Shown here: positions 27,316-45,008 of the stretch, piece by piece
Layout of the letters: each line of letters starts with the position of its first letter
Position numbering within the stretch: position 1 is the stretch's first letter
Notes under the pieces: model-generated
What the model was told of the DNA's origin: nothing
Databases searched by the model: none
The model's input: the letters and a program-made list of their open reading frames with translations, nothing else
Translations under genes and position numbers: made by a program
Source: Schizochytrium sp. TIO01
Taxonomy: Eukaryota > Sar > Bigyra > Thraustochytrida > Thraustochytriidae
Direction of reading: 5' to 3'
NCBI GenBank assembly: GCA_004764695.1
Contig: SMSO01000035.1
Coordinates: 2,230,001 to 2,294,000, forward strand
Length of the DNA stretch: 64,000 bases

Positions 27316-28584
27316 ATGGCGGAGGCGACAGCAGGACCGCAAGGCGTTCAGGTGTCCACAACTCGTATTTCTGCGCAAGATCAACAGCGCCGCAGTACGA
27401 ACGCAGCGGACGCACTGGTCTCATCAGCACCATGGCCACCTTCTTTCCAGCAGGCAGGCCAGCCAGATATGGTCTTGGCCGTCCAGAAAGACGCCTATTA
27501 TCGCCAAAAAGTTCGCGAGCAATTTCTGAGTGCATTTGATGTTTTATTGGAGCCCTACCAATCTGTAGTAGTCATGCCGGAAGTGAAACTGTTGGCAGAA
27601 TTGACATACTTTATGCTCACAACTGGCCAAGACAAGCAGACTCTTGGTGAAGAATACGTGGATATCATTCCAGTCGTAAGAGACAAGCTGAGGAATTCTT
27701 GGGATCTTCCACGCAAGCTTCAGAAATTAGCACTGCTTTTCTTTGGCGTTATTGCGCCGTATATGGTTCAAAGAATTGAAAGCGGAGGCTGGAAGTCCCT
27801 CGCGGTACTCTTTCAGAAACCCATGACAGCAGCAGAACGGGCTGCAGAAATGCGCAGGAAGATGCTTGAGCGTGCACGTCAACAGACACCGGCGGCTAAT
27901 GCGGGCTCGAATGGGCAAAACGGATCTTCGCAGATTGACATTGATGCACCAAAACCAAATTTGCGGCAACGACTTGTTGATTTTTACACTGCAAATCGTG
28001 AGCGCATTCTCTGGCTTCTGAGCTGGTCAGAGTTTCTTTACAAGGTTCACTTGGCAATATTTTATTTGCGTGGAACTTTTTATGAACTGCCTAAACGACT
28101 GGCTGGATTCCAGTATGTGTTTTCTCGTGTACCAAAGTCTGACAGGCCATCGTATAGGATCTTGGGTTGGTTTATTCTGGCGCAACTGGCTATTGAGGCA
28201 GCCCCCGCTGTACGTCACTCATTTCAAACCCTTCTTTTTTCCTGGGGAGTCCTTGCTAAGCGGCCTAATGAATCTGGGGAAGGCGATGCAGATTCCAAAG
28301 ACCGTGACGAAATCGTACCATCCTTACCTACTGCTGACAGTGCCTCACAAGACCTCGAAGATCTTGATCTCGTAGTTCTTCGTGACAAAAAACACGAACG
28401 AGGAATGGAACATATTAAATGTGGCATTTGTTTGAGCCCAGTCGAAAATGGTGCATGTCCCCCGTGTGGACATATGTACTGCTACGAACATATTGTCGAG
28501 GCAGTGGCAGTGAAAAGCGAGTGCCCGCTCTGTCGTCAAGCATGTACCCCATCTGATATAATGTGTGTTTACTTCACTTTGTAG
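27316..28584 (+). CDS. PEX10: Peroxisome biogenesis factor 10 (PEX10), RING E3 ligase
   Basis: PEX10 forms, with PEX2 and PEX12, the peroxisomal membrane ubiquitin ligase that recycles the PEX5 import receptor. The protein has 422 residues. The PEX2/PEX12-type membrane domain spans about 45-310, with family-like stretches such as VLLEPYQSV, ELTYFMLTTGQDKQTLGEEY and RLAGFQYVFSRVP. A disordered acidic linker (about 320-360) precedes the C-terminal RING (369-408): C369, C372, C384, H386, C389, H392, C403, C406. The sixth zinc ligand, normally Cys, is His (CYEHI). The start is the ATG at 27316, about 40 residues ahead of the conserved domain. Identification is firm; the ligand change could still bind zinc. 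Confidence 0.92.
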   Translation: MAEATAGPQGVQVSTTRISAQDQQRRSTNAADALVSSAPWPPSFQQAGQPDMVLAVQKDAYYRQKVREQFLSAFDVLLEPYQSVVVMPEVKLLAELTYFMLTTGQDKQTLGEEYVDIIPVVRDKLRNSWDLPRKLQKLALLFFGVIAPYMVQRIESGGWKSLAVLFQKPMTAAERAAEMRRKMLERARQQTPAANAGSNGQNGSSQIDIDAPKPNLRQRLVDFYTANRERILWLLSWSEFLYKVHLAIFYLRGTFYELPKRLAGFQYVFSRVPKSDRPSYRILGWFILAQLAIEAAPAVRHSFQTLLFSWGVLAKRPNESGEGDADSKDRDEIVPSLPTADSASQDLEDLDLVVLRDKKHERGMEHIKCGICLSPVENGACPPCGHMYCYEHIVEAVAVKSECPLCRQACTPSDIMCVYFTL

Positions 28585-29219: not shown

Positions 29220-30419
29220 TTACTTGCTTTCAGTAGTTGCGTTGGATGGAGGAGGTGTGGCTGCTGAAGAGGTTGGCATAGGAGGCGCTTCAAGCATTAC
29301 TGTAGGTTCTGGGAAGCCAAATGCACCAACAATTGGAGAAGCTCCCATGGGAGACCCAGGGATCTGCGGCATCATCAACCCTCCCGCGGGATACATAAAA
29401 TGGGGCGCAGAGCCGTAACTAAACCCAGTTGCAGCTGATGGTGATCCTGGAATGACTGTGGGGGATCCAGTTGCCATCATGTTCGAGAGTGACTGTTGGG
29501 TCATATAGTAAAGCTGGCTAGGCTGGAACATCATCTGCGGAGAGCCAGCATATTCACCGTTGACAGGTTGCGACAAGGAAAGCATTTGCATGTTTGCCAT
29601 GAGATCAGGCGGGAAATTCGGAGGAATTGGAAAGTTCGCTCCACCAATATTATTCTCCTCCAAGAGTGAAAGAGGACATTGCTGAAACCAGTGCGAATCG
29701 GGTCCCCCGCCCTCTTTGCCACAAATCTTGCACACATAACCTACTTTAGGAGGTTGAAAACTCTTTTTGCCAGATCTTCCCTTGGAAGCATCTGACATGA
29801 ACGGGTGAAGATGATGCTGATGAGCAAAGCCACCATGGAGATTGTTCATGTGAGAAGGGTGGTGTTGGTGATGGCGATGGTTCCCCATTCCGTTAGCCAT
29901 GCCCATTTGATCTGGGTATTGAAAGCCATGTCCTCCATTGAAGTTCGTATTCTTTGCTGAGGGAGCTGCACTATTTCCGTTCCAACCAGGAGGGAGCTCA
30001 CCTTGACGTTGAGGGCACAACTGGAACCAGTGGGAGTCTGGCTCGCCACCAGGCTTGCCACAAACCTTGCAGGTGTAGCCCGCCTTTGGTTTTGGTTTTT
30101 TCTGAGACGTATTTGCGTCCGTCTGCATATTGTCAAATTGGTTGTTTGCATGAATCTTGGCATTGGCATTGTTTCGATTCCGCGACCGGGACCCATGGGG
30201 TCCGTTTCCTGAGTGGAAGTCGTGTCTTGCAAGCCTTCCGCGGCTCGGAATGTGAGCTACCGGCTCGTCGACCGGAGCATCGGTTGTGCTATCCCCGTCC
30301 GTCGATGCATTAATCTCAAACTCCATATCCTTCCCGTTCCCGTACATGGGGTCGTTCGTGTCGATTGAAGACCGACCGGACTTTGATTCTAGTTTGTCCA
30401 ACGCGCGCGCTTCCTCCAT
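29220..30419 (-). CDS. Protein with two expanded zinc-knuckle motifs in a disordered chain
   Basis: A 399-residue, mostly disordered protein with two near-identical small zinc-binding modules. Module 1 has C117, C120, H130 and C135 in GYTCKVCGKPGGEPDSHWFQ; module 2 has C230, C233, H243 and C248 in GYVCKICGKEGGGPDSHWFQ. The spacing is Cx2C-x9-Hx4C, against Cx2C-x4-Hx4C in retroviral-type CCHC knuckles, while the following Cys-Pro is as in RNA-binding knuckles. The region between is His/Asn/Gly-rich; the C-terminal 150 residues are Pro/Met/Ser-rich with NFPIPPNFPPDLMANMQML-like sequence. This composition suggests an RNA-binding, possibly granule-associated factor, which is inference. The start is the ATG at 30419. 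I do not know a named orthologue. Confidence 0.8.
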   Translation of the reverse strand: MEEARALDKLESKSGRSSIDTNDPMYGNGKDMEFEINASTDGDSTTDAPVDEPVAHIPSRGRLARHDFHSGNGPHGSRSRNRNNANAKIHANNQFDNMQTDANTSQKKPKPKAGYTCKVCGKPGGEPDSHWFQLCPQRQGELPPGWNGNSAAPSAKNTNFNGGHGFQYPDQMGMANGMGNHRHHQHHPSHMNNLHGGFAHQHHLHPFMSDASKGRSGKKSFQPPKVGYVCKICGKEGGGPDSHWFQQCPLSLLEENNIGGANFPIPPNFPPDLMANMQMLSLSQPVNGEYAGSPQMMFQPSQLYYMTQQSLSNMMATGSPTVIPGSPSAATGFSYGSAPHFMYPAGGLMMPQIPGSPMGASPIVGAFGFPEPTVMLEAPPMPTSSAATPPPSNATTESK

Positions 30420-33441: not shown

Positions 33442-34168
33442 AATAAAAGACCCGTTACGGTGTTTCCCTTTATATTCATGTATGTTCCACAAGGTTTGCA
33501 TCCACCTGCGATACAAGAGTCGTGGCCACTTACATGACAATAAGCTGAAACACTTGGTCCAACGTGTAATAAAGCTTGGGTTACCATCCTACATAAAGAA
33601 CTCTTAGATGTGTACTATTTATCTATGGGTCAAAATAGAGACTCAGAAAGTTGGAAAGAAGACAAACAACACATTCTAGCGGACAAATTTAGTGCTCCTC
33701 TACTAGCTCCTTAGTACTACTTCTCTCAGCAAGAATAGAAACAACAGGAGTAGGATCAGTAGCAACAAAAAGGTCTTTCCCATCCGTGGCATTCGCAGCA
33801 ATCAAAATCTACCGCGCTCGCTCGGTGGGCGAGCGAGCGGGTGGAGTAGGTCCTTCAGAGGAACTGTACTCTGTTTGAAGGTCAAGGTCGTACTTCCCAA
33901 GGCTTATCTTGCTTTCTCTGAAACCTGTAGTCCTTCTGACTTTCACAACGTCAAGTAGTCTCGCCAAGGCAAACATCTACGCATTCAGTGAATTCAATCA
34001 AGAACCATTCAAGAGCAAGACTTCGCCTGAACTTCAATTCGCTAGACTCAATACAAAGCTTCACGAAACCTCTTTGAGTCCTCAAGAGGTAGAAACTACG
34101 ACATTTTAACAGAGAAAGCCTCTGATCGGATTGCTTGTAGAGGGCGAAGGGGGTTCCCATCTCTAAGC

Positions 34169-36367
34169 ATGAGGTCTGCTCTGTCTTCTGCGCTTGTTGC
34201 TCCAATGTCAAGACAAGCTGTGCATCCAACAACAGACATGAGCTCGCGCAAAGGTATGCTTCGCCGGACTCTTCCCCGATCAAACTCCAAGTCTTGGTCA
34301 ATGAGAAAACGTCGCAGGCATGCTCACTATCGATTTTCTAGAAAGCACCTCCTGAAGTTGCAACTTATGCTTTTTTGTATGGTTGCCTTGTACACATTGA
34401 TGCCAAGTGGTTCAACTTTGTGGGGCGCTTCTGATGATTTTGAGTCAGACTTCCACTCAACTTGGGGGCGGTTTTTAACAGAGGATTCCAATACGACAAG
34501 CTCATGCAGCTCTTCCTCATCAACAACATCAAATTCAACAGAGACTTCAGGTGGAGAATTCCCAGATGACTTTTTATCTTACGAACAGAAAGCCCACGGA
34601 GGCATCATTGTTCACATTTTTCTTATCTTTTACATGTTTATGGGTCTAGCTATTGTTTGTGATGAGTATTTCGAGCCTTCGCTGGAGATCTTATGTGAAG
34701 ATCTTCACCTGAAGGAAGATGTCGCTGGTGCAACATTTATGGCGGCGGGCGGCTCAGCACCCGAACTTTTCTCTAGTATCATTGGAGTTTTTGTAGCCAA
34801 AAGCGACATTGGATTTGGTACGATTGTAGGCTCAGCTACATTCAACGTCCTCTTCGTCATTGCTGCCTGTGCCTTTGTGACTGACAATCTGAGTCTAAGC
34901 TGGTGGCCGCTGACGCGTGATTGCGTCTACTACTGCGTTTCAATCGTTGTTCTTGTCTCTTGCATCATTGACCAGGCTGTGACAGCAGTTGATGCAACGA
35001 TTTTACTCATCATGTACGCCATATATATCACCATCATGTACTTTAATGAGCGCTTGGAGATTTACGTGACGAAAAAAGTCGAGGATGCTCAAATCCCGCG
35101 GCAAGGCTGGCGCTTGAAGCTCGAGCATGCACTGGACTCTCGCTTCTTTAATTACTTCATCTACATCATCATAGTACTCAATATCACTACTATATTTTAT
35201 GAGATGGCAAACGATGAAACGAAAGCCACTAACATCATCAATAGTGTGTGCTCAGCTCTCTTTATCACTGAAATGGTGGTCAAGATTGCGACGTTTTCTT
35301 TCTTTGGATATTGGCAGAACCCGGGGAATGCATTTGATGGCACTCTTGTTATTCTTATACTGGTTGAAGTAATTCTTTCTTCCTCAAGTTTCTCAGGTGG
35401 CCTTCGTGTTCTTCGCGCGTTTCGCTTCTTCCGTGTTGCTCGAGTCTTCCGCCTTTATATGGCTTCATTGGTTGAGAAGATTGATGCCGAGACGCAGACA
35501 TGTAGTGAGGACTGGGCGATGCTTGAACTGGCTGAAAAAATGACTTTTGAGGAGGCATCTCAATATGCGCTTCCTTTTGCTACACGCTCTGCCGCTGCAG
35601 TCGCACCGCATCACCGTCTTTCTCTGCGTGGCTCATCTCTGACTGAAGAATTGAAGGCAGAAGGTATTATCAAAGATGCTGAGCCCACAGAGGACAACGA
35701 CAAGGATGTCCGAGCCAGTAAAGTTTCATTCGACGATGATGATGACGATGATGATGGGCCGAGCAATCCATTTGAGCTTCCGGACGGAGGCCCCGTAGAT
35801 TTTGTACTGTGGCTGATAGCTTTTCCTTTGAGCTTCTTCATGTTTCTCACCATTCCCGATTGTCGGAGGCCAATCTTCAAGCGCTTCTACATGCTCACTT
35901 TTTTTATGTGCATTGTTTGGATTGCGCTGCTGGCTTATGTTATGGTTTGGATGGCGACAATCTTTGGGGACTTCTATGGAATTCCGGAGCCAATAATGGG
36001 ACTGACCCTTCTGGCTGCAGGCACGAGTATCCCTGACTTGCTGTCTAGTATTGCTGTGGCAAAGCGAGGATTCGGAGACATGGCTGTCTCGAGTTCAATC
36101 GGTTCAAACATTTTTGATATCTTGATTGGCCTTCCGGTACCTTGGTTTATCTACACGGTCTTTGTTGAGCGGGGTGGAAGCGTTGAGATCCAGTCCGAGG
36201 GGATTACCATCATGGTATTGACTCTCTTTCTGATGGTTGCAGCTGTTGTTTCAATCATCCACTGGAGCAACTGGGTCATGACCAAGAAGCTTGGAGTAGC
36301 AATGGTGGTCCTATACTTTCTATTTGTTGCTGAAAGCCTTATTCTTGAAATCTTGAAGGACTGTTAG
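34169..36367 (+). CDS. Na+/Ca2+-K+ exchanger (NCKX, SLC24-type) with inserted voltage-sensor domain
   Basis: One uninterrupted 732-residue frame. The two exchanger halves are complete: alpha-1 (about 155-235) with AAGGSAPELF, Glu199; alpha-2 (about 605-660) with AAGTSIPDLLSS, Asp623, and SNIFD, Asp650. These match the Ca2+/Na+ site residues of NCKX and the Asp linked to K+ dependence. Between the halves, where NCKX normally has a cytosolic loop (292-545), lies a four-helix voltage sensor: S1 326-345, S2 357-376 (F365, E368, K372), S3 387-405 (NAFD, D390) and S4 410-431 with R413, R416, R419, R422, R425 and R428. No S5-pore-S6 follows. A Ser/Thr-rich luminal or extracellular stretch (about 105-128) follows an N-terminal hydrophobic segment (61-78); an Asp run (522-529) precedes the second half. 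Expected role: electrogenic Ca2+ extrusion, presumably controlled by voltage. The start is the ATG at 34169. Confidence 0.93.
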   Translation: MRSALSSALVAPMSRQAVHPTTDMSSRKGMLRRTLPRSNSKSWSMRKRRRHAHYRFSRKHLLKLQLMLFCMVALYTLMPSGSTLWGASDDFESDFHSTWGRFLTEDSNTTSSCSSSSSTTSNSTETSGGEFPDDFLSYEQKAHGGIIVHIFLIFYMFMGLAIVCDEYFEPSLEILCEDLHLKEDVAGATFMAAGGSAPELFSSIIGVFVAKSDIGFGTIVGSATFNVLFVIAACAFVTDNLSLSWWPLTRDCVYYCVSIVVLVSCIIDQAVTAVDATILLIMYAIYITIMYFNERLEIYVTKKVEDAQIPRQGWRLKLEHALDSRFFNYFIYIIIVLNITTIFYEMANDETKATNIINSVCSALFITEMVVKIATFSFFGYWQNPGNAFDGTLVILILVEVILSSSSFSGGLRVLRAFRFFRVARVFRLYMASLVEKIDAETQTCSEDWAMLELAEKMTFEEASQYALPFATRSAAAVAPHHRLSLRGSSLTEELKAEGIIKDAEPTEDNDKDVRASKVSFDDDDDDDDGPSNPFELPDGGPVDFVLWLIAFPLSFFMFLTIPDCRRPIFKRFYMLTFFMCIVWIALLAYVMVWMATIFGDFYGIPEPIMGLTLLAAGTSIPDLLSSIAVAKRGFGDMAVSSSIGSNIFDILIGLPVPWFIYTVFVERGGSVEIQSEGITIMVLTLFLMVAAVVSIIHWSNWVMTKKLGVAMVVLYFLFVAESLILEILKDC

Positions 36368-38187: not shown

Positions 38188-41100
38188 ATGGTCACCTGCG
38201 AAGAGGTAGAAAAGGTCGTCCATGTGGTCTACCAAGGAGGAGCCGCAGAAAAGGGTCGCAGGGAAGCATTAGCGTGGCTTCAAAATTTTTCTACTACTCC
38301 GGAGGCATGGGCAATTTGGCTAGAGTTAGTAGGCTCACCGACCAACCAAACGCAGTTCTTTGCTGCCAACATGCTTTACGCGAAGGTTCAGAAGGAATGG
38401 TATGATCAGCCCGATGCAACGAAACAGGATATCCACCAGCGTATTCTTCAGGTGGTTCGTGAATATGTCCGCGATGACTCGCAACGCCTTTGGAACAAAT
38501 CTCTGTGCCGCCTTTGTCTGGCATTGGCAAGAATGACAGTTCAAACGCCCTCAATCCTTGAAGCCTACATGAACGAAGTATGGAACTTGCTTCGTGGAGG
38601 CCTTGAGCAAGCAGCATCCAACTACTCTCCATCTGCAGATCGTGCTCTCTTCGTTGCTACGGAGCTCTTGATTGATTTACCTGAGGAAAAAGAGGCCGAA
38701 GAGTCCCCTGAAAGCGCGGTTATCTCTGACACAAACCCAGGTGGAATCGGTAAGCTCATGAATGCCATGCTTGGACAGGTTGTGGAGGCTGTGACGCAGC
38801 TCATGATGAAGGTTGATAAAGCTTCAGTCCACGCACGTGCTTTAGAGTGCCTTCACGCCTGGGCTCCTCTTGGCGTTGATGTCCCAACACTTGCTCGCTG
38901 CAACCTGCTGAGACCCATGCTGATGGCTCTAAATACTTGTCAGGAGCTGACAGTCTTAGATATGGCTTCCCAAGCACTCATTGCCTGCGTTAAAAAAAAC
39001 TCATTGGAAGAGGAGCTCGGGCAACCTGAGACACCTGAGACGCTAGCAAGCTTGGATCAACTCGTGGAAGGAGTTTTAGCTACTCAGTCACGGCTCGCCG
39101 CAACTTGCGACGCGTCGGGGTCGAACAATGGTATTAGTGGTGAAAAACTACCTCTTGAGCGCGATCCAAGCACACAAGAAGATGTCGCGCTCAGTTTGTG
39201 CAAGCTCACTGTAGCGGTGGCTGAAAGTCAAATTGATAGAATAATTCCGGGTTCCACACCACAACTTCTTGGTCTTGTAGACATGGTGATGTCGCTTACT
39301 GCCCACCCTAGCCACTCAGTTTCAATCCTCACTTTGAATTTTTGGCTTCTCATACAAGATTACGAAATGGCACGTCGACACGAGTCTTTGCGTGAAACCT
39401 GCTACTTCAAATTGCTGGAAGTTCTTCTTTGCCAGTCTAAATTAAATGAAGATGCTAGCTCGGGCTATGAGGAAGACATATTCGATGAGATTCAGAGTTT
39501 TCGCAATAGTGGCGATGGCGTAAAAGACGTTTTCTATATCACCATGTACGTTTTAGGTCCTCAGTACGTCGAATGTATGCTTTCTGTTTTGCGAAATACG
39601 CAAGATTGGCGGGATTTTGAAGCAGCAATGTTTGCACTGAGCTCTGCCGCTCGAGTGATCAATGAACAAGCTGTGCGCCCAGACCCGCGCAGTGCTAATT
39701 TACGTGGTATTGTTGAAGTTGTCTTGCAAGAGCTCTCAACTTGGAACCTTCTTGGTGCGAACGGAGCCACACTACGCTCTGGAGTGCAAATGATTGGCAA
39801 CTTTGCCTCCTTCTTGGCCCGTATGGATCTCGCACTAATTGAACGTAATTTAAACTACGTTATTTTTGCTCTTCCATTCTCCGATCCAGTCAGCAAAACT
39901 GCTGCGGAGGCCTTTGGCCGCGTTTGCATTGCGAGTCGGCTGGAGCTCGCGCTTCATCCTGATGCCGTGAAAACCTTAGCGGCCGGTATTGAAAAGGCAT
40001 ACCAGTCCTTTCCAACGGACCCCACGAAACAAGAAGATCAAAGCTTTGCTGCAACAAAGTCATCTTCTTTCCCAGTCGATGCACGACTCAAAGCAGTAGA
40101 AGGCATTGCCCGTGTTGCTTCATGCATGAAGCTAGATGCGTGTCAAGAAACACTTGTAGTCTTGTTGAATCCGAGCCTGGACCGTTTGACTAAAGCTGTA
40201 GACGGAGTTGACTGCAATATTGCCGCACAGGAGCTGCGGGTTTTATGTTGCGCGGTAAAGTTTCTGGATGTGAATACCAAAACTTTGGCTTCTCCAATGG
40301 ACCACCCTGTGGCCGCTATCCTCGCCCAGATTATGCCAATTTTGGAGAAAATTACTGCTATTCCTGCTCTGCAACATGACACAGAAGTGGTCGAGGCATT
40401 ATACTCTCTTATATCTGCGTCATTTTTTTCAGCAAAAACTGTCCTGGCTCAACATCTAGAGTCCTTACTGACAGCTGCTGTAAAGCAATTTCGAATTACA
40501 TGGTCCCCATGCTGTATTACATGTGTTGGGAAAGCTGTGGAGGTTTTCGTTCCATCCCAGCCAGGGTCCGAAAGTGGCTTTCAGCATTTGTTTGGCCGCC
40601 TCACGGAAAACATGGTTGAATGCATTCGCGATGGGCATGCTGTAAACGATCCTGTTATTATCTCCACATTTTTTGATACTGCACTAACATTCCTTATATT
40701 CTGCCCCGGAGCAATTTTCTCGTCAGCTCCTACATCGTCCGAGGATAATGTCCCTTCTGAAAGTACGCTTGATGCCTTCCTTCAAATTATGGCCAAGTGT
40801 GTTTCAAGTGATGAAGTAGAGTCTCTACGATCAGTTGCTATCTTCATCACGTCTCTCATGAGTCGCCTCGGAGGAGATGCGACAACTGCAGCAGCCGCAA
40901 TGGGGAACATGGAGGCTGCATGTAAGGCCCGTGATCTATCTCAATACAGACCATTCTTCGATCAAGCCCTTTCCCGCAATGGTCGCTACTTAGTTGGTGA
41001 AATAATTCTCGCATTGGCTTCAACCTGCCCACCAACGCCCCTAGCTAAACTAGCTCAAGGTCTCGCAGATCTCACGGTCCGTTATCCTCAACTGGTACAA

Positions 41101-41334
41101 GAATCTGTTTATGCAACATTCATGCAGAACCCACCTATTTTTGCACGCCTTAGCGATGCCGATAAGGAGTGCCTTGTAACAACTATTCCTTACATGGCAC
41201 AAGGCGTTGGCACCAAAGGTAAAGAGGCCTTTGAGGAATTTGCACGCTTGTGCCGTAAGCAGACAAAATCTGAAACGTACCAGAAGCTCCTAAATGATCT
41301 GCGCATTGCCCCCGAAGTCATTGAAATTGCTTGA
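38188..41334 (+). CDS. Transportin-3 / importin-13-like nuclear import receptor
   Basis: A 1,048-residue HEAT-repeat karyopherin of the importin-beta superfamily, expected to carry cargo such as SR proteins through nuclear pores under RanGTP control. The N-terminus resembles the Ran-binding start of TNPO3/Mtr10: repeated helices with WLQNFSTTPEAWAIWLELV and TQFFAANMLYAKVQKEW, then an exportin-1-like domain at about 100-250. Helical repeats continue to the end, and the C-terminal FARLCRKQTKSETYQKLL fits the family. It is about 120 residues longer than human TNPO3, partly through polar inserts near 165-185 and 300-325. The start is the ATG at 38188. It ends only 109 bases from the convergent gene on the other strand. 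Distinguishing TNPO3 from IPO13 needs alignment. Confidence 0.87.
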   Translation: MVTCEEVEKVVHVVYQGGAAEKGRREALAWLQNFSTTPEAWAIWLELVGSPTNQTQFFAANMLYAKVQKEWYDQPDATKQDIHQRILQVVREYVRDDSQRLWNKSLCRLCLALARMTVQTPSILEAYMNEVWNLLRGGLEQAASNYSPSADRALFVATELLIDLPEEKEAEESPESAVISDTNPGGIGKLMNAMLGQVVEAVTQLMMKVDKASVHARALECLHAWAPLGVDVPTLARCNLLRPMLMALNTCQELTVLDMASQALIACVKKNSLEEELGQPETPETLASLDQLVEGVLATQSRLAATCDASGSNNGISGEKLPLERDPSTQEDVALSLCKLTVAVAESQIDRIIPGSTPQLLGLVDMVMSLTAHPSHSVSILTLNFWLLIQDYEMARRHESLRETCYFKLLEVLLCQSKLNEDASSGYEEDIFDEIQSFRNSGDGVKDVFYITMYVLGPQYVECMLSVLRNTQDWRDFEAAMFALSSAARVINEQAVRPDPRSANLRGIVEVVLQELSTWNLLGANGATLRSGVQMIGNFASFLARMDLALIERNLNYVIFALPFSDPVSKTAAEAFGRVCIASRLELALHPDAVKTLAAGIEKAYQSFPTDPTKQEDQSFAATKSSSFPVDARLKAVEGIARVASCMKLDACQETLVVLLNPSLDRLTKAVDGVDCNIAAQELRVLCCAVKFLDVNTKTLASPMDHPVAAILAQIMPILEKITAIPALQHDTEVVEALYSLISASFFSAKTVLAQHLESLLTAAVKQFRITWSPCCITCVGKAVEVFVPSQPGSESGFQHLFGRLTENMVECIRDGHAVNDPVIISTFFDTALTFLIFCPGAIFSSAPTSSEDNVPSESTLDAFLQIMAKCVSSDEVESLRSVAIFITSLMSRLGGDATTAAAAMGNMEAACKARDLSQYRPFFDQALSRNGRYLVGEIILALASTCPPTPLAKLAQGLADLTVRYPQLVQESVYATFMQNPPIFARLSDADKECLVTTIPYMAQGVGTKGKEAFEEFARLCRKQTKSETYQKLLNDLRIAPEVIEIA

Positions 41335-41443: not shown

Positions 41444-44400
41444 TCATCCAATTTGGCTTTGTCTACTCGATAGACTTTTCCTCCTGTTTGATAGAGCGGT
41501 ATTAGTCATTTGCAATGTTTCCTCATCACTATTATCATCGTCGTCATCATTAGGATTGTTATCATCATCATCGGAGTTGTCCCTGCGATTCTCAGTATAG
41601 TACGAAGATGAAGCAGGAATTCCCTCTTCTTCCTCTTCCTCCTCTTCCTCCTCTTCTTGACTATTTCCATCAGCCTCGTCTGAGTAGTATTCGTCGTTTT
41701 CTGATAGCGGCGACTCTGATCGATTATCCTCTTGGCTATTGCCCTCATCTTCATCATCTTCGTCATCATCTTCGTCATCATCGTCTTCATTATCTTCATC
41801 ACCTTCGGAGTCTGACTCACGAGACTCCGCTCCTTCATCTTGAGCAGTTTCAGCACCATTGGTACCTTGCAGATGAGCTAGTGGCTGTCTTGCTAAGCTT
41901 CCCTCTTTAGCTCGAGCTTCCTCTTCTACTTTTCGTTGCTCCTCCTCTTCCTTTTCTATCCGTCGAGCCTTCATTTCATCATTTCGACGCTTCAACACTG
42001 AACGAGCTTCTTTGCTCAACTTTTCCTGCATAAGCTGAGAGTTTTGGACTTCAATTTCCTGCAAGAGATCCTCTGGGACATTGACATCTTCAGCAGCTTC
42101 AAATGCTTTTTGCAGAAGGCGCAGTATGCAACGATTATAAGTTGTCAAAATTTCAGATAAAAACCCTGGCTGATTCAAAATTTCAGAAAGCTGTTTGTCT
42201 GGAAGAAGTCCCCCAAGGTATGTCTCTATCCCGGCATGACGAACTCGCTGCTCTTCTTCTTCTTCTTCTTCTTCTTCTTCTTCTTCTTCTTCTTGCTTCT
42301 TGGTCTGGAGTTGCTCAAATTTATTTCCGACGGTAGTTTGTCCACCATTTGCATTTGAAAGTAAGGATGCTGCTGCAGAAACAGCAGGTTCAACACTAAT
42401 TTGAGCAGCATTGATATTTTCATGTTGAGTCGCTTGTGGAGAGATTTTATTTTTCTGTCTTCCAAACCCTAGCCATCGGGATTTGGATTTACGCTCCCCA
42501 CTAGCCGAGGTTTTGCTGGGTAATATGGCTGTTGCAACATCATCTGCTACTGATCCAAGATCTGTAGAGATCTGCCTCGTAGAAAACGACTCTCGCCGCG
42601 CCATCCGAGAAATTAGCGCTGAGTCTGCTGCCTTGGTGTAGTAGTCATTCGGTTGGCCTTGTTCCGGTCCACCAATTGTTTTGCGAAGTAGTACATAAAC
42701 TACAGACGCAAGAATCGTTAGGTTTGCTTGGGCTCGCTTCTCTGGTTTCTGAACAATGCCCATTTCCCATGGTCGACATAGCACAGGTAGAAGGCATCGT
42801 ATGATGACAAATGTCGATAAAATTAACTTTGAGCGCTCGTAGTCAAACTCCGGTTTGATTAATTCCTCGTCGGGAAGACTTGGGTTGCTGTTTGGTGCAC
42901 TTTGAGTAATCTGTTCAGAGATAGAGGCTTTTGTTGCTGCAGTTTGTTCCTTTTCACGGATCATCCATCTCGTGTATCCAGATGCGCCAAAGTCTAAAGA
43001 GTTATGTTCAATTGGAAACAAAAACCCATCTGGAAAAACTGCACCATCTGTAACAAGTTTTCCTAAGAAGCTAGCGATAGCTGCAGGAAATGGTGGTTTA
43101 TCTGTTTCTATCGAACGCAATAGAGACTCAAACACTCCTCGTACACGTACTTTTAGTCGAAGTCTTGCGAGATCAGTTTCATCTACCTTTTCCCCATTTG
43201 CATTCACTGGGGCGGTCTTTTTGCCACGAAACATACGCATACCTTTGGTTCCAAATGCACTAAGTCCCCCACTGGGGTTAAGGTTCAGGTCTTTTTTCGA
43301 AGCAATATCCGTAAGCTGGAGAGCCAGAACTTGCGATGTCCATGAGCGCACGAGGTCTGCAAACCAAATCACTGCCTTATCCATATCTTTTCGCTCTGCT
43401 TGCGATATGATTGCACGGTGCATCTCAGCATCGCGACGAATACGGGCCAATGCAATGAATACAGTTGCAATAGCGCGGAAAAGAGGCTTGCCTTTGAGAA
43501 TCTGGTCTGCCGGTGGTGCTGTGACGCCCTCTTTCCGCCATCTATATAATGGTTTTCCACTACCGTATACAATAACTTTAAGCACTTTTCGTGATCGCTC
43601 TGCTTCCTCGACTTCCTTCTTCTCATCCTTTGCTGCAACTTTATCAGCCTCGTCGTCACTGACCTGCAGCAAATCAGTGTCATCATCCAAAAGTTTTTCC
43701 CATATCGTGCGATTTTCCTCATCAGGAGGTTTTGTGACTTTGATGGAATCAATCTTACTTGTTGTATTTGATAATGCCTTTTCTGTTGTTGCTCCCGGTT
43801 GCTTGGCTGGTGATGATCCAGAATGCTCCTCATTTACAGGATTTCTTTCTGGAGCTGATGGATACTTACCTGATAAACTTGTTTGATTCGGTTGAAGTGA
43901 TGTCAAGCTACCATGAGAAGCATTTTGCTGTAATAATGGAGACTCACTTCGAATGCCTCCTGCTTGCGATAGTGGTAGCTTCAATAATCTGTTTTCAAGC
44001 GCTTCAAGTAGAGCCTTGTTTTGACCAACAATATGATCTTCGAGTCTCCGCTGAAAGTCTTCTCTTTGCCGTAGCTCCATGTGAGCCTGCAACTGATTGT
44101 CCAGTCCATTGAGAACTTCGAGCATCGTATTCTGCTGTATCTGCAATTGCTTTCGAAATCGGGCAATAGTTTCATTCCTTGTGCGAAGATGTTGTTGTGC
44201 TATTGCTCGCTGATTCGTTTGAAGTTCGTTCTTAATGTTGCGATGGCGTCGGCCATGACGGTCTTTTAAATCTCTTTTTCTCCTTGATCCCCCACCCTTA
44301 TCTTTTTGATGCCGTCTTTGACTTTTGTCTCTTCTGTGTTGTTTCTTTGGAGTTTCTACTGTGCTAGAACTTGATTCAGAGTTGTCCAATAAAAATGTAT

Positions 44401-44650
44401 TTACAGACGCAGACGTAGATGATGCTGCTGATGACGAGAGTATCATGCCCCCATGTTCCATTTCTGATCTTTCACAAGAGGAGTGCTCGCCGTTAGAGCT
44501 GCTGGAGTGGTAGTCGTTGCTGTTCTCATGGCGTTGATCGACATCAGCCTGAGCTCTCTTGGTGTGGTGTCCGAACTTTTCTCGTTCGCGAGCAAGTCTT
44601 TCACGCACTAGATGTGCTCTTATGCGCAGCACTCGCTCTTGTGCAGACAT
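41444..44650 (-). CDS. Large acidic coiled-coil protein, family not recognised
   Basis: A 1,068-residue protein I cannot place. From the N-terminus: a charged helix (SAQERVLRIRAHLVRERLAR), Ser-rich and Lys/Arg-rich low-complexity sequence (about 60-150), a coiled coil (about 150-235), a disordered Ser/Pro/Asn stretch, then what looks like a folded helical domain over about 345-690 (WRKEGVTAPPADQIL, KPLFRAIATVFIALARIRRD, WFADLVRSWTSQVLAL, SLLRSIETDKPPFPAAIASF, KLILSTFVIIRCLLPVLCRP). A run of glutamates (about residues 786-800) is encoded by a GAA microsatellite. The last 170 residues are almost all Glu, Asp, Ser and Asn. The start is the ATG at 44650; the frame is open a further 159 bases but with no ATG. 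The folded core suggests a real protein, possibly cytoskeletal or ciliary, but that is a guess. Confidence 0.8.
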   Translation of the reverse strand: MSAQERVLRIRAHLVRERLAREREKFGHHTKRAQADVDQRHENSNDYHSSSSNGEHSSCERSEMEHGGMILSSSAASSTSASVNTFLLDNSESSSSTVETPKKQHRRDKSQRRHQKDKGGGSRRKRDLKDRHGRRHRNIKNELQTNQRAIAQQHLRTRNETIARFRKQLQIQQNTMLEVLNGLDNQLQAHMELRQREDFQRRLEDHIVGQNKALLEALENRLLKLPLSQAGGIRSESPLLQQNASHGSLTSLQPNQTSLSGKYPSAPERNPVNEEHSGSSPAKQPGATTEKALSNTTSKIDSIKVTKPPDEENRTIWEKLLDDDTDLLQVSDDEADKVAAKDEKKEVEEAERSRKVLKVIVYGSGKPLYRWRKEGVTAPPADQILKGKPLFRAIATVFIALARIRRDAEMHRAIISQAERKDMDKAVIWFADLVRSWTSQVLALQLTDIASKKDLNLNPSGGLSAFGTKGMRMFRGKKTAPVNANGEKVDETDLARLRLKVRVRGVFESLLRSIETDKPPFPAAIASFLGKLVTDGAVFPDGFLFPIEHNSLDFGASGYTRWMIREKEQTAATKASISEQITQSAPNSNPSLPDEELIKPEFDYERSKLILSTFVIIRCLLPVLCRPWEMGIVQKPEKRAQANLTILASVVYVLLRKTIGGPEQGQPNDYYTKAADSALISRMARRESFSTRQISTDLGSVADDVATAILPSKTSASGERKSKSRWLGFGRQKNKISPQATQHENINAAQISVEPAVSAAASLLSNANGGQTTVGNKFEQLQTKKQEEEEEEEEEEEEEEQRVRHAGIETYLGGLLPDKQLSEILNQPGFLSEILTTYNRCILRLLQKAFEAAEDVNVPEDLLQEIEVQNSQLMQEKLSKEARSVLKRRNDEMKARRIEKEEEEQRKVEEEARAKEGSLARQPLAHLQGTNGAETAQDEGAESRESDSEGDEDNEDDDDEDDDEDDEDEGNSQEDNRSESPLSENDEYYSDEADGNSQEEEEEEEEEEEGIPASSSYYTENRRDNSDDDDNNPNDDDDDNSDEETLQMTNTALSNRRKSLSSRQSQIG
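42251..42294. repeat. (CTT)n / (GAA)n coding microsatellite
   Basis: About fourteen triplets, read on the minus strand as a poly-glutamate tract. Length polymorphism would change the protein without breaking its frame. Confidence 0.9.
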
Positions 44651-45008
44651 GGATAGTGCATGAAGCCCCAAATTTGTTGACTGGATTGCTGATTCCTTGG
44701 TTGCTTTAAAATATGAAAAACTATTGGTGAACAAAGAGCCGTTAACTCGTTTATTAAAGTTACTTTTGACCAAGACTGAGACAACACGAAATACAAGTAG
44801 TCTCGACAATACTATGTAAAAACGAAACTTGAGAGTGCATAATGTACATGAATGGTTGCAAACGAATTTTTAGGTTTTGGACGCTTGGGAGCAACTGCCT
44901 GGCATTTCAATGCAGCTTGACACTAATGCAAATATGGTTGGAGAATGAAAAGTTTTTTTGTAGAATGTGATGTTTCATTTTAAGTCATGGTAATTCAGAT
45001 TCATCATA
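44651..45008. other. Intergenic region SPRYD7-like / acidic protein gene
   Basis: About 360 bases, AT-rich, between tandem minus-strand genes; presumed promoter of the acidic protein. Nothing else seen. Confidence 0.45.

Follow-up and report, generated by a model that had tools for sequence, protein, structure and literature searches.

According to Yeo et al. (2023), no transporter other than the sperm Na+/H+ exchanger SLC9C1 (sNHE) is known to be controlled by voltage-sensing domains (VSDs), and the coupling of an S4-bearing VSD to a transporter was considered there to appear unique to it. This exchanger is activated by hyperpolarisation, and its VSD is needed only to lift inhibition, according to PMC10620092. 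The charge moved by non-channel VSDs and by SLC9C1 is given in the same literature as about 1-3 e0. Two reviews, one from 2023 (PMC10651576) and one from December 2024 (PMC13095418), name the sperm exchanger as the VSD-bearing transporter, and the term “NCKX” is absent from both texts. Proteins combining a voltage-sensor segment with a cyclase domain have been reported in stramenopiles and alveolates, in the available part of a study on Phytophthora (PMC12223298). The NCKX passages of PMC2784329 mention no voltage sensor, and PMC11085791 mentions exchangers once and voltage sensors never. No description of a VSD-bearing NCKX was found in the literature searched (bioRxiv and most subscription papers lay outside its scope), in agreement with the preliminary description of this locus, which knew of none. 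The sequences are public, and database entries already bear the two corresponding Pfam labels under exchanger names.

The window analysed here is a stretch of 64,000 nucleotides from Schizochytrium sp. TIO01, and all coordinates below refer to it unless otherwise indicated. The gene of interest (34169..36367, + strand) has an intron-free frame, with an unbroken translation of 732 residues followed by a stop codon; the open frame recorded at this place in the genome search was 773 amino acids long. A Pfam profile search with the 732-residue protein identified two Na_Ca_ex stretches (176.3 bits, E=4.9e-52) and, between them, one Ion_trans stretch (residues 325-430; 67.6 bits, for a cut-off of 25 bits; E=1.3e-18). 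This is the outcome foreseen in the preliminary description, which had read both exchanger repeats and an S1-S4 module in a single frame. The Ion_trans match spans positions 2-109 of the 241 positions of the profile, corresponding to S1-S4 without S5-S6, and the next long helix in the predicted structure lies at residues 542-561. The earlier claim that no pore helices follow S4 was therefore borne out, and the end of the Pfam match and the AlphaFold helices together rule out a channel fragment. The Pfam search found nothing else in the protein: no Calx-beta domain in the loop, no Na_H_Exchanger domain and no cyclic-nucleotide-binding domain. When sequences of solved structures were searched, the middle of the protein matched T-type calcium channels, with domain II as the best match, and the outer parts matched NCLX, NCX1 and NCX_Mj. 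A chance match is excluded by the E-values for Ion_trans and Na_Ca_ex and by conservation among relatives. The architecture of this protein (hereafter referred to as VSD-NCKX) is certain. The neighbouring genes, encoding Pex2/Pex12-like (27316-28584), zinc-knuckle (29220-30419) and importin-13-like (38188-41334) proteins, showed no link to VSD-NCKX, and a fourth neighbour (41444-44809) had no Pfam match. A perfect 10-base inverted repeat (cgctcgctcg/cgagcgagcg, with a 5-base spacer; 33815-33839) stands about 330 bases upstream of the VSD-NCKX ATG.

The protein has an N-terminal hydrophobic helix, TM0 (residues 50-77; 34316..34399, + strand), modelled by AlphaFold with block-mean pLDDT values of 48, 75 and 67 over residues 51-80 and followed by a low-confidence loop. 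The first exchanger half, TM1-TM5 (residues 138-291; 34580..35041, + strand), was delimited by the Na_Ca_ex stretch and the AlphaFold helices, as was the second (35792..36361, + strand), which comprises the helix at residues 542-561, taken as interfacial, and TM6-TM10 (Na_Ca_ex, residues 574-721). The alpha-1 repeat contains the GGSAPE motif with E199 (34763-34765, + strand) and the alpha-2 repeat contains D623 (36035-36037, + strand) and D650 (36116-36118, + strand). The ion-site acids of both repeats are thus present, including the Asp of SNxFD, and the three residues singled out as such in the preliminary description proved invariant across a 72-row alignment with animal NCKX3 among its rows. 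We assume for E199, D623 and D650 the roles of ion-site residues. D650 is the Asp of SNIFD, at the position at which NCKX keeps Asp and which we take to be that of NCKX2 D575, a residue needed for K+ dependence; on this basis, K+-dependent Na+/Ca2+ exchange of the SLC24/NCKX type is expected. A run of eight aspartates (residues 522-529; 35732..35755, + strand) precedes G530-P531 in the alignment. The acidic run and the GP pair were also found in the VSD-less protein P0093, in animal NCKX3 (P0112) and in an EF-hand paralog from the same genome, indicating that the run is a general NCKX feature and no part of the VSD.

Relatives were sought by protein searches in which the candidates were sequences sharing short words with the query. 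Among the matches listed, 100 of 120 relatives (an identical one included) had a voltage sensor at the corresponding place. This count, 101 of 121 with the query, was obtained by a loose motif test, which required one acidic residue, one basic residue and a spaced set of three charges at the S2-S3-S4 position; in the rows displayed, residues 320-432 were covered to 93-100% in sequences counted as having a VSD and to 60% or less in those not counted. Both Pfam domains were precomputed in 91 of the 120 matches listed. The identical protein (P0002, 100% identity) was recorded on two contigs from a different source. The best named relative, from Hondaea fermentalgiana, was 72% identical over 84%, and a transcriptome-derived protein from Mucochytrium quahogii (P0005) was 56% identical over 99%; the same domain order, which the preliminary description had proposed to look for in other stramenopiles, was present in both. 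Transcriptome sources also yielded P0079 and P0083, both with a VSD, the latter under taxid 136419 (Cercozoa). A search from P0083 provided at least eight further proteins with both Pfam domains, and a search from P0089, which is 94% identical to an Aureococcus protein over 44% of the length, provided at least one. Sensor motifs were lacking in 20 of the 120 matches listed; these 20 included the animal proteins bearing a name, as well as a partial gene model from Aureococcus (P0105) that breaks off after S2 and was counted as sensor-less. No named animal protein had PF00520 among the matches listed in three protein searches; P0004, with both domains, is recorded under an animal-style name that is truncated ahead of any species. 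Judging from these sequences, VSD-NCKX is a broad family present in thraustochytrids, a cercozoan and probably a pelagophyte, a large family rather than a single gene, something that could not be seen in the preliminary description.

The VSD (S1-S4, residues 325-434; 35141..35470, + strand) was defined from the Ion_trans match, the AlphaFold helices and conservation in 100 VSD-NCKX sequences (the 101 mentioned above minus the identical P0002, with the window's protein included). In S2 (35222..35296, + strand), the F365-x2-E368-x3-K372 motif was conserved as F/Y, E and K/R, respectively, in 100/100 sequences. In S3 (35321..35383, + strand), which contains the motif N387-A-F-D390, D390 was found in 100/100, an acid (E/D) at the position of E400 in 100/100, and N387 in 95/100. 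N358 was likewise invariant (100/100), and N338 in S1 was present in 98/100. The six S4 arginines (35405..35470, + strand) were Arg or Lys, among the residues present, in 94/99 (position 413), 99/100 (416), 98/100 (419), 93/95 (422), 100/100 (425) and 96/100 (428) sequences; all six positions were occupied by Arg/Lys in 81 of the 100 proteins and at least five in 99. The S4 positions between the arginines were mostly variable, with the exception of F420 (88/99). The S2, S3 and S4 signatures noted in the preliminary description were, thus, all found and are conserved. The mean proportion of differing sites was 0.61 for the VSD versus 0.43 for the exchanger. In 19 channel VSDs from the same genome, the E and D of the charge-transfer centre were present in all 19, with N358 in 5/19, the acid at position 400 in 6/19, and Arg/Lys in 13/19 at position 425 and 3/17 at position 428. 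On these residues, the sensor looks functional.

Known exchangers of the NCX type take regulatory input in the TM5-TM6 loop. The same genome contains 15 Na_Ca_ex loci (29 matches, grouped manually), of which one has an Ion_trans match inside, overlap with the 86 Ion_trans matches of the genome being judged by coordinates. In the best-scoring NCKX-type paralog (L033:297-2534, + strand; C24, ~4.636-4.638 Mb), the loop corresponding to the VSD-NCKX sensor slot holds EF-hands, and its TM5 and pre-TM6 segments align in register with those of VSD-NCKX on both sides of the loop. A Calx-beta domain follows one Na_Ca_ex stretch in the frame of another locus (L042). These data are consistent with the earlier proposal of a sensor taking the place of the regulatory loop, and suggest that the TM5-TM6 loop is a slot filled by a voltage sensor in VSD-NCKX and by a Ca2+ sensor in the paralog. 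No sNHE-type gene was detected in the genome: by coordinates, none of its 10 Na_H_Exchanger matches coincides in position with an Ion_trans match (86 in all). A Na+/H+ exchanger of 1209 residues (L068:507-4136, - strand; C30, ~1.423-1.427 Mb) has, by eye, apparent cyclic-nucleotide-binding segments and no S1-S4. Several other VSD proteins were observed. One of 750 residues (L047:271-2520, - strand; C24, ~396-400 kb) may be a voltage-sensor/RGS fusion, with an Ion_trans S1-S4-type match at residues 143-255, an arginine-rich S4 and RGS at residues 537-645; such a fusion is absent from the titles among the literature matches listed. In another of 888 residues (L046:1-2664, - strand; C33, ~4.243-4.246 Mb), an Ion_trans match of the S1-S4 type (161-301) is accompanied by a guanylate/adenylate cyclase domain (615-804), recalling the Phytophthora family of PMC12223298. 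A third, of 333 residues (L048:574-1572, + strand; C3, ~1.845 Mb), reads as Hv1-like, with an S1 Asp and RLWRLLR in S4, and had Ion_trans as its only Pfam match. The last (L045:316-1227, + strand; C13, ~2.892 Mb) is VSD-like with few S4 charges; Ion_trans scored 31.0 bits there in the genome search, and its 304-residue frame had no Pfam match.

A phylogeny of the exchanger halves was inferred by a quick method from 82 rows (67 with and 15 without a VSD), after the removal by hand of 46 of the 121 rows, mostly near copies but also P0090 and P0105, and the addition of seven paralogs from the genome. The VSD label requires three changes on this tree. A clade of 69 rows (support 98) contained 64 VSD rows and five VSD-less ones: P0093, nested among VSD rows, and a group of four on long branches (P0104, P0120 and the paralogs L033 and L036; support 93). 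Three VSD rows (P0075, P0083 and P0100) lay outside this clade, nearer to animal-type NCKX. The position of P0093 and of the four-row group inside the main clade shows that related exchangers manage without the sensor. The VSD tree was based on 35 NCKX sensors (32 of the 101, plus three from the second search) and the 19 channel VSDs, and omitted weak, partial or divergent sequences (the Hv1-like protein, L045, the cyclase and RGS proteins, L049, L050 and L067). The NCKX sensors all fell on one side of a branch separating them from the 19 channel sensors, with moderate support (87/93, without a star; the tree carried warnings of long branches and of unsettled bootstraps). P0100 was placed differently in the two trees. 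VSD and exchanger distances were correlated (r=0.70; 2211 pairs from 67 rows), as expected from shared inheritance, such correlations being eased by the relatedness of the rows. The simplest reading of the trees would be that the sensor was recruited once and lost subsequently in some lineages; alternatively, the sensor may have been transferred between exchanger lineages.

The AlphaFold2 model, obtained with the 72-row alignment, had a mean pLDDT of 78.7 and a pTM of 0.73. It placed a four-helix S1-S4 bundle (S1, 325-347; S2, 352-376; S3, 385-405; S4, 413-434) between the two exchanger halves. Block-mean pLDDT values were 80-97 across both halves, lower only near the C-terminal end, 89-96 for S1-S3, and 66-78 over residues 401-430, encompassing the S3-S4 turn and S4 (66 and 78 over 411-430); values below 50 were obtained for most of the N-terminus and for residues 438-444 and 467-526. 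TM5 is joined to S1 by two helices (293-307 and 314-322; 35045..35134, + strand), and no helix longer than 12 residues was predicted between S4 and residue 542. Most of the segment linking S4 to TM6 was modelled with low confidence, and the model therefore reveals no rigid path for coupling. The top Foldseek matches were NCLX (E=1.3e-9, TMq 0.39) and NCX1, with Nav, Cav, CatSper and TPC sensors lower down (E>0.01). With such a loose global superposition, the model supports the exchanger fold, the sensor fold more weakly, and not their mutual placement. A post-S4 segment, DAETQ (439-443; 35483..35497, + strand), is a candidate coupling element partially conserved within the family (D439, 44/93; T442, 60/100; Q443, 75/100); the DAxTQ motif was missing from P0079 and P0083 on reading of the alignment.

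We consider it likely that VSD-NCKX is an exchanger of the SLC24 type, with its activity gated by membrane voltage through the built-in sensor. The motion of the sensor, its coupling to transport and the route of that coupling are all inferred, as follows. The S1-S4 sensor in the cytosolic TM5-TM6 loop would set exchanger activity according to membrane voltage. A change in voltage would move the six-arginine S4 through the charge-transfer centre formed by F365, E368 and D390. The sensor is covalently attached at each end to one half of the exchanger (TM5-linker-S1 and S4-linker-TM6), so that movement of S4 would alter the position or tension of the linkers and thereby permit or block alternating access. 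As S1-S4 provides an even number of membrane passes, its insertion would preserve the topology of the exchanger. With the hyperpolarisation-activated SLC9C1 taken as a model, transport would be permitted at negative voltages and shut on depolarisation, a sign that we favour at slightly better than even chances; if transport does shut on depolarisation, reverse-mode Ca2+ entry would stop.

Could the VSD instead serve in structure, targeting or dimerisation, or in docking a partner channel, without sensing voltage for transport? The mostly low-confidence S4-TM6 linker is compatible with such a role, as are the VSD-less rows within the main clade, which make loss of the VSD likely. A mere anchor, however, would have no use for the strict conservation of E368 and D390 (100 of 100 sequences) or for Arg/Lys at no fewer than five of the six S4 positions (99 of 100) in a VSD that is variable at many other sites; this explanation is, therefore, unlikely. 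A bifunctional protein in which the VSD itself conducts ions, as in Hv1, is more improbable still: Asn338 is present in 98/100 sequences, at a position occupied in the Hv1-like protein of the same genome by Asp, presumably the proton-selectivity residue, and the arginine series is uninterrupted in S4 of the protein studied here. Isolated VSDs do conduct in some proteins, but gating-pore currents are usual for VSDs lacking S4 charges, according to the sections available of PMC10651576. An assembly chimera, a pair of genes or a spliced-out exon has a negligible probability, given the frame without internal stops and the relatives, which rule it out for the family: the transcriptome-derived M. 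quahogii protein aligning over 99%, the recurrence of the layout in the 100 relatives among the 120 matches listed, and the identical protein on two contigs from a different source, with no sign of the misassembly envisaged in the preliminary description. Carriage of VSD-NCKX by viruses was also rejected: the viral-collection contigs scanned yielded seven short Na_Ca_ex-type relatives (L051-L057), none with room for a VSD, as five of the seven had matches to both halves within 657 to 1026 bases and the matching frames of L054 and L055 were 347 and 351 residues long.

Voltage gating of the exchanger remains the preferred reading, and VSD-NCKX is a second kind of VSD-bearing transporter. Taken together, the data make it likely that VSD-NCKX constitutes a separately evolved and widespread class of protist Ca2+ exchangers, with halves bridged by S1-S4 and the loop serving as a sensor slot, in which voltage directly sets Ca2+ transport. 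If so, voltage sensors have joined transporters more than once, here by being inserted between the halves of a transporter with an unrelated fold, and a single molecule would couple electrical signals to the clearance or entry of Ca2+ in protists, at least some of them marine. VSD-NCKX also offers a naturally occurring chimera in which to study the driving of a transporter by a sensor.

Comparison with known systems places these features as follows. VSD-NCKX resembles SLC24/NCKX proteins, such as animal NCKX3, in its two Na_Ca_ex repeats, its GxSAPE and SNxFD sites and the acidic-GP segment before TM6, but differs from them in having a complete S1-S4 in the TM5-TM6 loop, where the aligned VSD-less NCKX rows have unrelated sequence. 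It shares with NCX and EF-hand exchangers the housing of a sensor in this loop, but the insert is, by sequence, a voltage sensor rather than a Ca2+-binding domain. Its S1-S4 is similar to the VSDs of Cav and Nav channels, with its best structure matches in T-type Cav domain II and charge-transfer residues in common, whereas VSD-NCKX lacks S5-S6 and keeps N358, the acid at position 400 and Arg/Lys at positions 425 and 428. Hv1 has a signature that we take to be an S1 Asp and an RxWRxxR-type S4; VSD-NCKX, by contrast, has N338 and RVLRAFRFFR in S4. Like SLC9C1, VSD-NCKX belongs to the secondary-active exchangers and combines an S1-S4 sensor with the lack of a pore. In SLC9C1, the Na_H_Exchanger domain is followed by the VSD and a cyclic-nucleotide-binding domain; VSD-NCKX does not match this layout, differs in transporter fold and ions, and carries its sensor between the two halves. 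Finally, VSDs without an S5-S6 pore (VSP and Hv1) or fused to an effector, as in the VSD-cyclases of PMC12223298, are already known, and VSD-NCKX differs from these proteins in that its effector is an ion exchanger.
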